Assembly: GCA_025943965.1 (NCBI GenBank)
Contig: JAPCWD010000004.1
Span: forward strand, 62,001 to 126,000
Direction of reading: 5' to 3'
Source of the DNA: Synergistaceae bacterium DZ-S4
GTDB lineage: Bacteria; Synergistota; Synergistia; Synergistales; Synergistaceae
Length of the DNA stretch: 64,000 bases
Each line of letters starts with the position of its first letter. The stretch's first letter is position 1. The notes beneath the pieces are model-generated. The model was given only the letters and a program-made list of their open reading frames with translations. It made no database searches and had not been told where the DNA came from. Below are positions 24,628 through 57,906 of the stretch, piece after piece. The position numbers and the translations under genes were made by a program.

Positions 24628-25206
24628 TCAGCTTTTATTTACTAATTTTTCATAATCGTCAGGTGTATCGATGTCACGGAAGTGACAGTCAGACGTTTCG
24701 GCAGCCATGATTTCATCTTTGTGCTCCCTGAGGATGTTCCTTCCCCCGGCGTCTCCCTGTGCGGCTTTGAATCTCTCTTTCCATATCGCACGGTAAAACA
24801 TCGGGTGCCCGAAGACGCCGTTCCTGCAGGGGGTAAAGACTGTCCTGTCCTCCGGTATGCCAGAGAAGCGATCCTTAAGCTTTATCATTTCATCCTTCCC
24901 GACCAGGGGGAGATCTCCGAGCATTATGCAGAAATCCTCGCCGTCGGGCAGCATTTCAAGCGCAATAGAAAGGGAACTTGACTGTCCTCTTTCGGGTGCA
25001 GGGTTTACAGCAGCACGGATGCCATCTCCCAAATCTCCCAGGACATCATGAACTTCACTGGAAAAAACCGCGATGATCTCTGAGAAACCTGCTCCCCGCA
25101 TATTTTCGAGTACTGTCTCTATCACAGTGCTATCACCGAAGGGGAGAAGAAGCTTCTGGACCCCCATCCTTTTTGATAGTCCGGCAGCAAGAAGTATCGC
25201 CTTCAT
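24628..25206 (-). CDS. MobA-like nucleotidyltransferase (probable molybdopterin cytidylyltransferase)
   Basis: 192 residues of the MobA/MocA NTP-transferase fold: LLAAGLSKRMGVQKLLLPFG at the N terminus, metal-binding LGDLPLV, and GHPMFYR. MocA-type enzymes attach CMP to molybdopterin for the xanthine dehydrogenase family. It overlaps yqeC by 4 nt, a pairing typical of selenium-dependent molybdenum hydroxylase maturation clusters. Confidence 0.8.
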   Translation of the reverse strand: MKAILLAAGLSKRMGVQKLLLPFGDSTVIETVLENMRGAGFSEIIAVFSSEVHDVLGDLGDGIRAAVNPAPERGQSSSLSIALEMLPDGEDFCIMLGDLPLVGKDEMIKLKDRFSGIPEDRTVFTPCRNGVFGHPMFYRAIWKERFKAAQGDAGGRNILREHKDEIMAAETSDCHFRDIDTPDDYEKLVNKS

Positions 25207-50304: not shown

Positions 50305-50808
50305 ATGAAGAAGTCGATTCTGACCATTGCCGCAGCTTTTGTTCTGATATTCAGCTTTACACAGGCTGTTTGTGCCCTCGAACCGGGCACTGCAGTAAGC
50401 GACTTTGAACTGAAGGACATAGAGGGGAAGGCGGTAAGGCTGGGTGACTACAAAGGAAAGACAGTCGTGATCAATTTCTGGGCCACGTGGTGTCCGCCGT
50501 GTAAAAAAGAGATGCCCGACTTCGACCTCCTTGACAAGGAACTTAAAAAGAGCAAGCAGGCGGTGCTCCTTGCCGTGAATATGACTGACGGGAAGAGAGA
50601 CACCAAAAGCAAAGTCGAGGCATTCATAAAGGAAAATAATTTCGGCATGAAGGTACTCCTCGATACAGAGGGAAAAGCCGCCAAGCTTTTTGATATAAGA
50701 TGGCTTCCCACTACAGTTGTAGTTGATGGCAAAGGCATACTTCGCTGGCAGGTCCTCGGGGAAACCACCAAAGAGGATGTTCTGAAGGCAGTCAGGGATA
50801 TTAAGTAA
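50305..50808 (+). CDS. TlpA/ResA-like periplasmic thiol-disulfide oxidoreductase
   Basis: 167 residues. Signal peptide or N-terminal anchor (MKKSILTIAAAFVLIFSFTQ, cleavage near VCA-L), then a thioredoxin fold with active site WATWCPPCKKEMP near residue 65 and cis-Pro in WLPTTVVV. It reduces disulfides outside the cytoplasm and receives electrons from the adjacent CcdA; the ccdA ATG follows the stop directly (TAAATG). Confidence 0.88.
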   Translation: MKKSILTIAAAFVLIFSFTQAVCALEPGTAVSDFELKDIEGKAVRLGDYKGKTVVINFWATWCPPCKKEMPDFDLLDKELKKSKQAVLLAVNMTDGKRDTKSKVEAFIKENNFGMKVLLDTEGKAAKLFDIRWLPTTVVVDGKGILRWQVLGETTKEDVLKAVRDIK

Positions 50809-51483
50809 ATGTGGGCAGACCTTCCGCTCCTATTCCTTGAAGGCTTTCTTGCCTTCATCTCTCCATGCATGCTTCCGATGCTGCCTGTATACCTGATGTA
50901 CCTTGCGGCAGAAACAGAGCATGGAAAGAGGGCCAGCATCGTAAACACGATAGGATTCGTCTGCGGGTTCACTGTGGTCTTTATGGCGCTCGGAGCCACT
51001 GCTACCGCGATAGGATCGCTGATGAATGAACACAGGATGCTTCTGCAGAGAGTCAGCGGAGCGATCATCCTGGTCTTCGGACTGCACTTTCTCGGTATCC
51101 TGAAGATAGGCTTCCTTGATGTTGAAAAGAAGATAGATCTGGGTCTGAAGAAGCGAGGAGGCTTCATAGGAGCCCTGCTCTTCGGCTCAGCTTTTTCGCT
51201 TGGGTGGTCGCCATGCCTTGGACCCTTCCTGGGTTCGGCCCTCATGCTTGCTGGGAGCGGCAAAACAGTTATGCAGGGTGTATTTTACCTGTTTGTGTTC
51301 TCAATGGGGCTGGGAGTGCCCTATTTGCTTGCGGCTGTATTTTTCACGAACATAAAGGGTGTCTTCCAGTGGCTGAAAAAACATGGCAGGCAGATAAAGA
51401 CCGTATCCGGCTTTGTCCTTGTACTTGCGGGACTGATGATGCTCTTTGACCTTTTCGGTTATTGGGCAGGACTCTTTGCCTGA
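50809..51483 (+). CDS. ccdA: Cytochrome c biogenesis/thiol electron transfer protein CcdA
   Basis: 224 residues, six membrane helices. The two conserved redox Cys lie in AFISPCMLPMLPVY and LGWSPCLGPFLGS. CcdA passes electrons from cytoplasmic thioredoxin to extracytoplasmic partners such as the TlpA-like protein encoded immediately upstream. Confidence 0.9.
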   Translation: MWADLPLLFLEGFLAFISPCMLPMLPVYLMYLAAETEHGKRASIVNTIGFVCGFTVVFMALGATATAIGSLMNEHRMLLQRVSGAIILVFGLHFLGILKIGFLDVEKKIDLGLKKRGGFIGALLFGSAFSLGWSPCLGPFLGSALMLAGSGKTVMQGVFYLFVFSMGLGVPYLLAAVFFTNIKGVFQWLKKHGRQIKTVSGFVLVLAGLMMLFDLFGYWAGLFA

Positions 51484-51572: not shown

Positions 51573-52133
51573 TCAGCAGTCTCCAGAGGCTTTGGAGCAT
51601 CCCCTGCCCAGCAGGATAAGGCTCATCCCGCTGAAGACAAGATTTATCCCGAGTATGATCCCTATCATCGCGGCTCCTGTGAAAAGGTTTTTCCACATCA
51701 TGACGGAGAGGATGATCCCGAGAAATCCGGAGACGAGGATCCAGATCGAGCCCTCTATCTCCCTTACTCGGAAATACTCAATGACCTTGGTGGCCCCGTC
51801 AGCCATAAAATATGCCGCAAGTATTATGCTTAGGGTCATAACTCCTGCCATGGGATGGACCAGGAATATGAAACCGGACGCCATGGCGGCCACAGCCATT
51901 ATCGTCTCCTGCCACGGGATCCCGCCGTCACTGAAGCCTCTGAAGGCACTCCACCCCTGACTGAAGGCTACTGCTATCAAAAGCATGCCGACAATAGTTT
52001 CAACTGCGAACGATGCGATAAGAGGCATTGAAAGAGAGATGAGTCCCAGGAGAAGCATAAGCCCTCCTATAAAGTAGAACCGCCTCTTGTTTTTTTTGAG
52101 GTCCTCTTTGGAAAACTTTCCGGTAAAGAGCAT
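51573..52133 (-). CDS. HdeD-family (DUF308) membrane protein
   Basis: 186 residues with six hydrophobic helices in the repeated pattern of HdeD proteins (FIGGLMLLLGLISLSMPLIA, GFIFLVHPMAGVMTL, GFLGIILSVMMW). E. coli HdeD is linked to acid stress; role here unknown. GAGGAGG lies 7 nt before the ATG. The small UGA-containing ORF ends 14 nt upstream and is probably co-transcribed. Confidence 0.82.
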   Translation of the reverse strand: MLFTGKFSKEDLKKNKRRFYFIGGLMLLLGLISLSMPLIASFAVETIVGMLLIAVAFSQGWSAFRGFSDGGIPWQETIMAVAAMASGFIFLVHPMAGVMTLSIILAAYFMADGATKVIEYFRVREIEGSIWILVSGFLGIILSVMMWKNLFTGAAMIGIILGINLVFSGMSLILLGRGCSKASGDC

Positions 52134-52147
52134 TGTATCGCCTCCTC

Positions 52148-52291
52148 TTATTCTTTTTCCTCAGATCCCTTTGAGCCTTTTGCAAAATCTTTTATTTTCG
52201 ATACGATCCATGAGAATGACGCGGCGACCGCCACGATCGGCAGAAGCAATATTCAGGGAGGACATCCCCCGCGACGTTTTTTTAATGTCAA
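52148..52291 (-). CDS. Candidate small membrane selenoprotein with CPPU motif
   Basis: A 47-codon ORF if the single in-frame TGA (52253-52255) is read as selenocysteine. It starts at TTG 52291, 8 nt after GGAGG. The product begins MTLKKRRGGCPPU, has one hydrophobic span (ILLLPIVAVAASFSWIV) and a hydrophilic Lys/Glu-rich tail ending EEKE. Basic residues before the span suggest the N terminus, and so the CPPU pair, faces the cytoplasm near the membrane. CPPU mirrors a thioredoxin CPPC site with Sec in place of the second Cys. A SECIS-like hairpin follows the UGA. I do not recognise the family. The alternative is a chance ORF or a nonsense-mutated gene. Confidence 0.6.
52218..52238 (-). promoter_or_regulatory. 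Bacterial SECIS-like hairpin after the in-frame UGA
   Basis: On the minus strand GATCGTGGC pairs with GCCGCGTC, leaving one bulged U in the 5' arm, around a GGUC apical loop. Eight base pairs form (one G-U). The loop starts 23 nt after the UGA. A bulged U and a GGUC loop are the SelB-contact features of the E. coli fdhF SECIS. Confidence 0.6.
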
Positions 52292-52408
52292 TTCGAACAC
52301 CTCCGGTCATTGATATTGGATCGATCGTCTCACACCTATACCCTAAACGGGAGGGGGTAATTACTGTATTATCTGTAATCATTCTATTTTACATATGATC
52401 CGGAGGTC

Positions 52409-53491
52409 TTAATTTCCGACAAACTCACCGCTTGGGTAATTTCTTGGTTTCTCTTCCTTCATAAGCACCCTTTCTGCGCCTTTGAAGAGGGCCTCAAGTT
52501 CGTTTTCTCCTGGCACGACTCTTATAGGGGCAAGGAATCTGATCTTTTTGATAAGCATTCCGGTCAGGATGTCGGAGTATGCCATCCCGCCGGTGAGTAT
52601 TATCGAGTCGATGTCTCCGTCGAGGACGGTGGACATCTCCCCGATACCCTTGGCTATCTGATAGGCCATGGCCTCTAGGACAAGTTTTGCATTAGGGTCA
52701 TGTTCAGCAATTTTACCGGCCTCCCTAATGTCCCTTGTTCCCAGATATGCCACCATGCCCCACCCCGAAAGAAGTTTTTTCTTGAGTTCAGCCTCACTGT
52801 ATATCCCGCTGAAGATGAGGTCGACCAGTTCCCCCACCGGAAGCCCGCCCGCCCGTTCGGGAGAGAAGGGTCCGTCAGCCTTTGCGCCGACCACGTCAAC
52901 TATTTTACCGCCGCAGTGAGCTCCGATCGTTATACCGGTACCCAGGTGGGCAACGACGAATCTGCAGTCTTCATATTTTTTCCCGAGTTCAGCCGCCGCT
53001 TTTCTTGCCACTGCTTTCTGGTTGAGGGCATGGACGAGGCTTGACCTTTTTATTTCAGGTGCACCTGAGATCCTTGCTACTTCAGTCAGTTCGTCCACAG
53101 AGACCGGATCGACTATGAAAGCCCGGCAGCCCGACATCTCTGCGAATCTTTTGGCGATGAATGCTCCCAGGTTTGATGCATGTTCCCCGCGCGGAGCCTC
53201 TGCCAGGTAATCCGTCATCTCTTTTGTGACAAGGTATGTGCCGCTGGGGATCGGAGCAAGTATGCCGCCTCTTCCGACAACGGCATCAAAGCTCTCCGGC
53301 AGAATGCCTTTCTCGAGAAGGGTTTGCCTTATTAGTTCGAATCTATGGTCAAGCTGATCCAGAACGCATTTATATGCAGAGATAAGGTCTTGGTCGACAG
53401 GTATGTTTTCCTTAAGGATCTCTTTACCGTCCTCGTAAACCGCTATTTTTGTAGAGGTCGATCCGGGGTTTACTGCCAGGATCCTGCTCAT
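52409..53491 (-). CDS. buk: Butyrate kinase (or branched-chain acyl kinase)
   Basis: 360 residues of the acetate/butyrate kinase family: NPGSTSTKIAVYEDG at the N terminus, VGRGGILAPIPSGTY, VAHLGTGITIGAH and LTGGMAYS. It forms ATP from acyl phosphates produced by the upstream phosphotransacylase, the last step of fermentation of amino-acid-derived acyl-CoAs. The start is ATG at 53491, just after the ptb stop. The region 52292-52408 between it and the small ORF holds no clear terminator. Confidence 0.88.
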   Translation of the reverse strand: MSRILAVNPGSTSTKIAVYEDGKEILKENIPVDQDLISAYKCVLDQLDHRFELIRQTLLEKGILPESFDAVVGRGGILAPIPSGTYLVTKEMTDYLAEAPRGEHASNLGAFIAKRFAEMSGCRAFIVDPVSVDELTEVARISGAPEIKRSSLVHALNQKAVARKAAAELGKKYEDCRFVVAHLGTGITIGAHCGGKIVDVVGAKADGPFSPERAGGLPVGELVDLIFSGIYSEAELKKKLLSGWGMVAYLGTRDIREAGKIAEHDPNAKLVLEAMAYQIAKGIGEMSTVLDGDIDSIILTGGMAYSDILTGMLIKKIRFLAPIRVVPGENELEALFKGAERVLMKEEKPRNYPSGEFVGN

Positions 53492-53493
53492 GG

Positions 53494-54408
53494 CTATTTC
53501 ATCCCGCCGGAAATAATGCATGCAAGGGCCATGCTGAGGAATTTTGATTCAGGCGGATCAGACCTTGATACCAGAACTATGGGCACCATTGCCCCAAGGA
53601 CCAGTCCTGCCATCTGAGCGTGACAATAGTGGACAAGGGTCTTGCAGTGGACATTGCCGCACTCGATGTTCGGAACCAGTGTAAGGTCGACCTTGCCTGC
53701 TATCTTGCTCTTTATCCCCTTGTGTTCCGCATATTTTTGGGATGCCACGACATCGATCGCCATAGGACCTTCGACCGTGCATGTGCAGGGCAGGTCGTTG
53801 AACTCGCCCTCTTCCCATGCCTTTACTATCCCGGCTGCATCGACGGTAGACTGTATGTTGGGATCCACTTTTTCGTTAGCTGCCAGGCATGCCGCGTTTA
53901 CATGGTCGTATCCGAGAGCGCTTATAGCTTCAAGTGCGTTTCTCAGTATCTGTTTCTTCTGGTCAAGGTTAGGTGCGACGTTGAAGCCGCTGTCCGTACA
54001 GAAAGAGAGGTGGTTTTCACCTGGTATCTCCATTATCGCCAGGTGGCTCAGCAGGCGTCCTGTCCGAAGGCCGTTTTCCCTGTCAAGGATAGCCTTCAGA
54101 AAATCGGAAGTGTTGATGAGTCCCTTCATGAGGGCATCGCCCATTCCGTCCCTTACGCTCTGCACCGCGATAGCCGCTGCCGCAGGCAGTGAGCCTGCGT
54201 GGATGATATCCACCTTGTCCGAGATGCCCGCTTCCTTTACCTCAGGCAAGATCACTTCGCTGTCTCCGGTCAGTATCGCCCTTCCGAGCCCCCTCTGCAT
54301 GGCAAGCCTTATGGCCTCTATGCTTTCATGATCCGCCGCAGCAAGGACAACTTTGCTTCCTGCAAGACAACCGCTGCTGTTCATTATCTCTATAAACCTT
54401 TTATACAT
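53494..54408 (-). CDS. ptb: Phosphate butyryltransferase
   Basis: 304 residues of the phosphotransacylase family: AADHESIEAIRLAMQRGL, ALMKGLINTSDFLKAIL and ADLVLVPNIECGN-like VDLTLVPNIECGN motifs. Converts butyryl- or branched-chain acyl-CoA to acyl phosphate. ATG at 54408 lies after AAAGGGGG. Forms an operon with buk. The 86-nt gap to the divergent MATE gene contains two TATAAT boxes without clear -35 elements. Confidence 0.88.
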   Translation of the reverse strand: MYKRFIEIMNSSGCLAGSKVVLAAADHESIEAIRLAMQRGLGRAILTGDSEVILPEVKEAGISDKVDIIHAGSLPAAAAIAVQSVRDGMGDALMKGLINTSDFLKAILDRENGLRTGRLLSHLAIMEIPGENHLSFCTDSGFNVAPNLDQKKQILRNALEAISALGYDHVNAACLAANEKVDPNIQSTVDAAGIVKAWEEGEFNDLPCTCTVEGPMAIDVVASQKYAEHKGIKSKIAGKVDLTLVPNIECGNVHCKTLVHYCHAQMAGLVLGAMVPIVLVSRSDPPESKFLSMALACIISGGMK

Positions 54409-56112: not shown

Positions 56113-57906
56113 ATGTCCAAACGAGTTTGTATGGGTAACGAGGCGATAGCACTCGGAGCTGCGAGGGCGGGGGTCAGCGTCGTATCGGGCTACCCCGGCA
56201 CTCCGTCGACCGAAATTATTGAGACTTTGATCCGCGAAAAGATACCCGGTATTGAAGTCCAGTGGTCAACAAACGAAAAAACAGCTTTGGAAGTGGCTGC
56301 GGGAGCCGCATACTCCGGGATCAGATCGATGGTCACGATGAAGCAGGTCGGACTGAACGTCGCTGCAGATCCTTTGATGAGCCTTTCGTACGTTGGTGTT
56401 GAAGGCGGGATGGTAGTCGTAGTCGCGGACGATCCGGGTCCGTGGTCCTCACAGACCGAGCAGGATACCAGGCATTTTGCCAAATATGCGAACTTGCCTG
56501 TATTTGACCCGTCATCGCCTGAAGAGGCATATGAGATGGTCTCATATGCATTCGGCCTCTCCGAGGAATTCAGGCTGCCCGTGTTCCTGAGACCGACCAC
56601 GAGGGTCTGCCATGCCAGCGCCACAGTGGATTTGGCGGATGTACCTGCCCCTAAGCCCGCCTCAGGTTTTGTTAAACGATCCGACTGGATCATTTTTCCC
56701 GCGCTTTCTTACAGAAAACATGGCGAACTTGAACAAAAGCAAAAACTGATATCTGAAAAATTAGGGACCCTTCCCTTTAACAGGGTCATAAAAGGCGGAA
56801 GGATAGGCATAGCCGTATCGGGAATATCCTATCTCTACCTGATGGAAGTCATAAAGGAGTTCGGACTGGACCTTACAGTATTCAAGGTCGGCACCCCCTA
56901 TCCGATCCCGGCAGAGCCGGCAGAGGAATTCTTATCATTAGTCGACCGGGTCATGGTGATCGAAGAACTGGATCCGGTGATTGAGGAACAGCTCTTGCTG
57001 CTCTCTGCAGGCAAAAAGGAGATACTGGGCAAAATGACCGCCCATCTTCCCTGCAACGGCGAATACGGTTTTGAACTGATCAGGGATACAGTTCTCAAAT
57101 TTGCTGGAGTCAAGGGTGAAGATCCACTGATGGCAGAAATCCCTGTACTTCCCGTCAGACCGCCGGTGCTCTGCGCCGGGTGTCCCCACAGGGCATCCTT
57201 CTATGCGGCCAAGACAGCTGCCAAAAACTTTGAAAAGACAGTCTACTGCGGCGATATAGGCTGTTACACCCTTGGCAACGCCGCGCCGCTCAACACGGTC
57301 GACACTTGTCTCTGCATGGGCGCAGGAATAACGATAGCACAGGGGATAAAGCTGGCGGAAAAAGAGACCAAGTGCATTGCCTTCATAGGTGACTCGACCT
57401 TTTTCCATACCGGGATACCCGGAGTTATAAACGCAGTTTATCAGAACACCGACATAACGATAGCGGTGCTCGACAACCACACGACTGCAATGACAGGAGG
57501 CCAGCCGCACCCCGGAACGGGAAGGACCGCGATGGGCATGCCGGCAAAGCCGCTTGATATAGAAAAAATCTTGAGGGCATGCGGAGTGGAGCACATATCG
57601 ACAGTTGACCCGTTCAAATACGATGATACTGTCGATGCCTTCAAAAACGCTCTTGAGCACACAGGGCCTTCGGCTGTTATTGCAAAAGCGCCCTGCATTG
57701 CCCTCATAAGGCTTCCGAAAACCGTACGAAGAGTCAACGGAGCCTGCATTGGCTGTCTCAAATGCATAAAGCAGCTGGGGTGTCCCGCAATGTCTGCAGG
57801 TGAAGACGGAAAAGTGTCGATCAATGAGCCCATATGTACAGACTGCTCCCTTTGCGTGAATGTCTGCCCCGTGGGTGCCATAAAGAGGGTGGACAGAGAT
57901 GCTTAG
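56113..57906 (+). CDS. iorA: Indolepyruvate:ferredoxin oxidoreductase, alpha subunit
   Basis: 597 residues. N-terminal pyrimidine-binding domain (GYPGTPSTEIIE, WSTNEKTALEVAAGAA), thiamine-diphosphate domain in the middle (GDSTFFHTGIPGVINAVY, LDNHTTAMTGGQPHPG), and a C-terminal ferredoxin domain with two 4Fe-4S motifs (CIGCLKCIKQLGCP and CTDCSLCVNVCP). It oxidatively decarboxylates aryl-pyruvates from Trp, Phe and Tyr to aryl-acetyl-CoA, reducing ferredoxin. Overlaps iorB by 8 nt. Confidence 0.93.
   Translation: MSKRVCMGNEAIALGAARAGVSVVSGYPGTPSTEIIETLIREKIPGIEVQWSTNEKTALEVAAGAAYSGIRSMVTMKQVGLNVAADPLMSLSYVGVEGGMVVVVADDPGPWSSQTEQDTRHFAKYANLPVFDPSSPEEAYEMVSYAFGLSEEFRLPVFLRPTTRVCHASATVDLADVPAPKPASGFVKRSDWIIFPALSYRKHGELEQKQKLISEKLGTLPFNRVIKGGRIGIAVSGISYLYLMEVIKEFGLDLTVFKVGTPYPIPAEPAEEFLSLVDRVMVIEELDPVIEEQLLLLSAGKKEILGKMTAHLPCNGEYGFELIRDTVLKFAGVKGEDPLMAEIPVLPVRPPVLCAGCPHRASFYAAKTAAKNFEKTVYCGDIGCYTLGNAAPLNTVDTCLCMGAGITIAQGIKLAEKETKCIAFIGDSTFFHTGIPGVINAVYQNTDITIAVLDNHTTAMTGGQPHPGTGRTAMGMPAKPLDIEKILRACGVEHISTVDPFKYDDTVDAFKNALEHTGPSAVIAKAPCIALIRLPKTVRRVNGACIGCLKCIKQLGCPAMSAGEDGKVSINEPICTDCSLCVNVCPVGAIKRVDRDA

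Follow-up and report, generated by a model that had tools for sequence, protein, structure and literature searches.

A selenoprotein of 47 residues is very probably encoded on the minus strand at positions 52148-52291 of the window, that is, of the 64,000-nt stretch of the Synergistaceae bacterium DZ-S4 genome (G000; 2.15 Mb in 41 contigs) that was analysed. This judgement rests on comparisons of sequences alone; there is no protein or selenium evidence for it. The gene has a TTG start codon (52291-52289), and 12 codons, ending in GGCPP, run up to a single in-frame TGA (52253-52255), after which a further 34 codons lead to a TAA stop (52150-52148). The predicted product reads L/MTLKKRRGGCPPU-ILLLPIVAVAASFSWIV-SKIKDFAKGSKGSEEKE. 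A ribosome binding site, GGAGGTG (52298-52304), lies ahead of the start, with its GGAGG (52304-52300) 8 nt from the start codon; either GGAGGTG or GAGGTG was found at this place in all relatives of the same genus. On the same strand, 14 nt downstream of the gene, an hdeD-like gene for a membrane protein (DUF308; 51573-52133) begins with an ATG at 52133 preceded by its own GAGGAGG (52141-52147), and ends in an ordinary TGA. This whole layout had been proposed in a preliminary description, and all of its elements were present in the sequence with exact coordinates. Normal gene finders overlook such a gene because its internal stop codon is read as selenocysteine (Sec).

When 61 relatives were searched, the peptide was recovered from all seven genomes of the genus and from five others of the family (E values of 4e-10 to 2e-7), each copy having one TGA, at the same codon. 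Profile searches in which TGA was allowed were run on 188 Synergistota genomes, other phyla being outside their scope, and with the second profile homologues were found in 25 genomes belonging to 11 genera and three families. A 26th match of that profile, in G187, had no TGA and was excluded from membership. The G078 member, found by the second profile only (MTWKKWIGRCPPULFLHLLLALVLGIMYIMRFFKS), is an independent confirmation of the family. Members are 34-49 residues long. The TGA occupied the same codon in 25/25 member genomes, among which neither a Cys, Trp or other sense codon nor a TAA or TAG was seen at that position, and no Cys homologue was found in the 188 Synergistota genomes. The C, P, P and U of the CPPU motif (52253-52264, minus strand), together with one Ala, were invariant in the 24 aligned sequences. 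A search of 1.80 Mb (strands counted separately) for C-x-x-TGA followed by a hydrophobic stretch rendered 24 members of the CPPU family and one other match; the occurrence of the family is well beyond chance. No homologue of the peptide was found in plasmids, phages or viral contigs. Outside Synergistota, Cys forms were sought only with the strict pattern [KR]R[PR]G[GF]CPPC, and the sole match in the contig scan, from Acidobacteria, reads LYKRRGGCPPCSRIPPL and then stops, so it was put down to chance, as were a second TGA match in G003 (L029) and two TAA-containing matches (L016 and L017).

The codons beyond the TGA bear the marks of a translated sequence. Within the genus, dN was 0.099 and dS 0.42 over 20 codons past the TGA (dN/dS of about 0.24), and the variable columns were concentrated at third positions (7, 4 and 13 at codon positions 1, 2 and 3, respectively). 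The corresponding post-TGA values were 0.30 and 1.20 across the family, and 0.27 and 0.80 in family f3. Judged by these substitution patterns, the codons past the TGA are under purifying selection, which would not be expected if the UGA were a stop, since the sequence would then be untranslated.

A hairpin of the bacterial SECIS type was predicted at 52218-52238 (minus strand). Its core (52235-52220) consists of a 6-bp stem (52235-52230 with 52225-52220) closed by a GGUC loop (52229-52226) that begins 23 nt past the UGA; a bulged U (52236) and two lower pairs are optional parts present in the window. The 63 nt starting at the TGA align without gaps in 23 sequences, and from these RNAalifold, unprompted, returned a single hairpin of six pairs (columns 21-26 with 31-36), 94.9% of cells being paired. 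Three pairs had changed on both sides, pair 21-36 occurring as C-G, U-A, A-U and G-C; the covariation score was reached by none of 500 shuffles, and slid controls scored clearly lower. The loop varied (GGUC, AGUU, AGGU, GGGC, AGGC or CGUU), always with G as its second base. Synonymous divergence in the genus was 0.28 in the hairpin codons, about half the 0.46 and 0.60 of the flanking ones, and in f3 it was 0.31 against 1.29 and 2.2. Such a lowering of synonymous change is the mark of an RNA element lying within a coding region.

The published bSECIS rule demands a loop of 3-9 nt, a stem of 4-16 bp, a G in the first two loop positions, a spacing of 16-37 nt and an MFE ≤ -7.5 kcal/mol (PMC13188914). 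Every one of these criteria was satisfied by the window hairpin. The rule was passed by 19 of 24 members in exact register and by 21 of 24 in any register, with G001, G002 and G080 failing it in its strict form; random TGAs of the window passed in 0.09% of cases in exact register and in 6.9% in any register. A covariance model of the hairpin scored well in the window at this site only, the model having been built partly from the same sequence. Taken by itself, the window hairpin did not stand out in energy (z = -0.15), and the case for a SECIS element therefore rests on covariation. The Rfam gathering scan of the window gave no match, nor did a search of the DZ-S4 genome with Rfam SECIS_1 (RF00031), which matched no control genome either. 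Likeness to the E. coli fdhF SECIS, which the preliminary description had drawn from the hairpin, the 23-nt distance, the GGUC loop and the bulged U, proved partial. What is shared with fdhF is the hairpin just past the UGA, the G found in every loop and, in many members, a loop of the GGUC type, but the bulged U is not conserved: it is present in the window and its close relatives, and is a C in G050, g36 and g43, while the two pairs below it are kept in 15/23 and 11/23 sequences. In fdhF, moreover, the bulged U lies nearer to the loop than in the window, where it is 6 bp below it.

The machinery for Sec insertion is encoded in the same genome: selB (C13:2961-4838; 355 bits) adjoins selA (C13:4903-6267; 546 bits), and a tRNA-Sec gene was found at C8:33433-33525 (77 bits). 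The genome also has a grdA with an in-frame TGA, in the motif ECFVU. Most other carriers of the CPPU gene have the machinery too, and gaps were mainly in G014, G005 and G019, which are metagenome-assembled genomes of 65-66% completeness. In G090 no tRNA-Sec was found and selA was, in G089 the reverse was seen, and G085 has a partial selA. Presence of the gene was not statistically tied to that of selB (Fisher p = 0.49), as selB occurs in most genomes of the set. On the reading preferred here, ribosomes would start at the TTG at 52291 and reach the UGA at codon 13, where SelB charged with Sec-tRNA, bound to the hairpin, the loop of which begins 23 nt further on, would allow Sec to be inserted instead of translation being terminated. 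As a separate observation, in G050 (locus L092, G050:C21) the tRNA-Sec gene (24719-24812) is followed on the same strand, some 750 nt downstream, by the CPPU gene, which starts at about 25572.

The product would be a single-pass membrane peptide with a short basic N-terminus, a helix capped at its N-end by a C-P-P-Sec group, and a polar tail. The hydrophobic helix, ILLLPIVAVAASFSWIV (52202-52252, minus strand), is placed directly after Sec by hydropathy (the 19-residue Kyte-Doolittle maximum, 2.28, starts at the Sec) and by AlphaFold2, which gave one helix from the Sec residue on (mean pLDDT 73; core 83-91). These models make it probable that the CPPU pair lies at the surface of the membrane and at the N-terminal end of the helix, a position in which, it is inferred, a selenolate would be stabilised. 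Positive residues flank the helix on both sides, and charge-based topology left its orientation undecided. No thioredoxin fold or domain was detected in these 47 residues, which form one helix and contain no Pfam domain above threshold. Eukaryotes have SELENOK and SELENOS, small selenoproteins that cross the membrane once and in which Sec lies outside it, near the C-terminus and after the helix. The CPPU peptide resembles them in size and in its single pass, no homology being claimed, but its Sec is at the N-end of the helix, as a cap, and its SECIS lies within the coding region. It can likewise be likened to TlpA/ResA in having a C-P-P-C/U motif followed by a helix, a comparison of how the two might work and no more, because a thioredoxin fold needs more than 47 residues.

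As far as the searched databases and the open-access literature show, this family of selenoproteins is undescribed, which agrees with the preliminary description, where no such family was known. NCBIfam held no match to it at E ≤ 10, and Pfam gave only stray weak matches of single members, none above threshold. No paper joining CPPU with a selenoprotein was found in open-access full text, and the families of prokaryotic selenoproteins tabulated in 2026 (PMC13188914, Table 1) include nothing of this shape to the extent that this source was available; subject to the same restriction, the deep-Sep analysis of Aminobacterium sp. MB27-C1 found 13 known genes and reports no new family of this kind. 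Bacterial CxxU families in the accessible part of that table (GrdA, SELENOW-like, DUF1858, AhpD-like) are alike in their in-frame UGA within CxxU, in a bSECIS hairpin right after the UGA and in their dependence on SelA, SelB and tRNA-Sec. In contrast to them, the CPPU peptides are of 34-49 residues, with a single membrane helix and without a soluble domain, have no detectable sequence similarity to these families, and no Cys homologue of them was found. Bacterial selenoproteins are for the most part sought through Cys homologues, through Sec homologues already known or through known domains (PMC13188914, PMC12013277). That no Cys homologue was found, although nearly all selenoprotein families have one without its being a requirement, would explain why methods based on Cys/Sec pairs miss this family. 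If the assignment is true and there is no Cys form, Sec chemistry would have to be indispensable in the family, which would be among the smallest known selenoproteins. Since micro-proteins that exist only in a Sec form escape both the usual selenoprotein searches and ordinary gene callers, a class of them under 50 residues may be going unseen. The CPPU peptide also offers a minimal system in which to study what one selenol does when placed at the surface of a membrane.

The preliminary description had suggested a link to HdeD or to the TlpA-CcdA thiol system nearby. The former holds in the window's family: in 13/13 carriers 0-21 nt separate the CPPU gene from hdeD downstream, and a common mRNA probably serves both proteins. 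It does not hold in the two other families, where a terminator-like stretch or unrelated genes, and not hdeD, come after the gene; the peptide thus cannot be solely an accessory of HdeD. Ten genomes of the window's family have a close hdeD with no CPPU peptide upstream. At their C-terminus the HdeD-like proteins of this family carry a conserved GRGC(S) motif, the Cys of which was kept in every peptide-linked copy whose C-terminus was available, and was lost only in three unlinked copies, of genus g8. It was mostly kept in the unlinked copies, and was for that reason rejected as a clean marker of partnership. HdeD is inferred to be the likeliest partner in the window's family, perhaps through its C-terminal Cys, on what is only a weak hint; a membrane protein of unclear mechanism thereby gains a possible partner. 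The next gene upstream on the same strand encodes butyrate kinase (52409-53521), taken as context only; a butyrate kinase gene is upstream in g1, g10 and g14, and in g5 the upstream gene is on the other strand and of the kind found at 56113-57906 of the window. The TlpA-CcdA link is patchy: genes for a TlpA/ResA-like thioredoxin with WCPPC (50305-50808, plus strand) and a CcdA-like protein (50809-51483, plus strand), both convergent with hdeD and likewise regarded as context, occur nearby in the window's genus and a few other genera and are absent elsewhere. The best NCBIfam match of the CcdA-like protein, below the cut-off, was the DsbD-like part of selenoprotein TsoB.

The closeness of hdeD raises the possibility that the gene is a selenium-sensing leader, in which readthrough to the TAA in the presence of selenium would permit a restart at hdeD, while in its absence ribosomes would stop some 120 nt upstream and less HdeD would be made, the peptide itself being unimportant. 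The short gap in 13/13 genomes does make translational coupling likely. This explanation is nevertheless very improbable: hdeD is not the next gene in two families, amino acids beyond the hairpin are under purifying selection, and CPPU is invariant though the hairpin does not require those codons. The good ribosome binding site, and the use of UGA as a normal stop by most genes, would also suit a conventional leader peptide of 12 codons with an open frame downstream of its stop by chance. Such a leader can hardly be entertained, however, with the post-TGA frame and its amino acids conserved over three families at a dN/dS well below 1, a TGA never replaced by TAA or TAG, and a hairpin that covaries. 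Nor is there more to be said for a UGA read as Trp or through near-cognate suppression, even if readthrough of single UGA codons does occur in bacteria. TGA is the stop of hdeD, from which it follows that it is not generally reassigned, and in G015 it also ends the CPPU gene. Neither TGG nor another sense codon occurs at the site in any member, the SECIS-type hairpin and its invariant loop G are conserved, and Sec machinery is present. What the comparisons do show is selection for the UGA, for the codons past it and for the hairpin. The preliminary description would have given up its selenoprotein reading of the hidden frame if codons after the TGA were not conserved in related genomes, if other stops replaced the TGA or if selA, selB and selC were absent; none of this was observed. 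It had also proposed checking whether homologues keep U or have C and whether they keep the hairpin: U was retained throughout, and a hairpin with a 6-bp stem, a 4-nt loop and compensatory changes is conserved. The selenoprotein reading thus emerges strongly supported by the conserved TGA, the post-TGA selection, the hairpin and the Sec machinery.

What the selenoprotein does is much less certain, as there are no functional data. In f3 the CPPU gene stands alone and, in g36, g43 and g52, lies near arsenic-type genes in varying sets: arsM (NF008823), arsN2 fusions, arsR, ArsP_1-type permeases and a membrane-fusion protein. It follows arsM at a distance of 58-98 nt in several g43 genomes, and a gene for an ArgZ-like dihydrolase in g37. 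Because it is kept amid such different neighbours, the peptide must act itself, an argument against its being a mere leader. Redox exchange by the selenol/thiol pair at the membrane face is a plausible inference to which we give a little under even weight. Another function for the same selenoprotein, in which Cys-Pro-Pro-Sec would bind arsenic or soft metal(loid)s or hand them over to a membrane efflux pump and would have no part in general thiol redox, remains possible but is the weaker inference; it is favoured by the company of arsM/arsN2, arsR, ArsP_1-type permeases and the efflux-type fusion protein in three f3 genera, but the window's family has no arsenic genes near the CPPU gene, and genomes with neither context (the Aminobacterium type, G050) still keep it. 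The remaining weight goes to structural or unknown roles. Taken broadly, we lean towards regarding these proteins as Sec-only, single-pass membrane selenoproteins of Synergistota providing a stand-alone C-P-P-Sec redox or metalloid centre, its partner being HdeD or arsenic methylation/efflux depending on the lineage.

Some further features of the f3 loci were recorded. Near the CPPU gene in L089 and L096, an ArsM-like methyltransferase is fused to an ArsN2-type acetyltransferase domain. In L087, L089, L090 and L096 an ArsP_1-like permease is apparently split into two half-size genes beside a membrane fusion protein, and the two halves from L087 fell just below the Pfam cut-off. In genera g36, g40 and g43 the palindrome ATACCCCNAGGGGGTG, or a close variant, was seen upstream of the CPPU gene (L086, L088-L090 and L093-L096), overlapping both the -10 box and the ribosome binding site. 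No regulon sharing it emerged; elsewhere in the f3 genomes it had scattered single-mismatch matches, and it looks specific to the CPPU gene. It could be an operator, with the look of one for a metal or persulfide sensor, or just a strong ribosome binding site.
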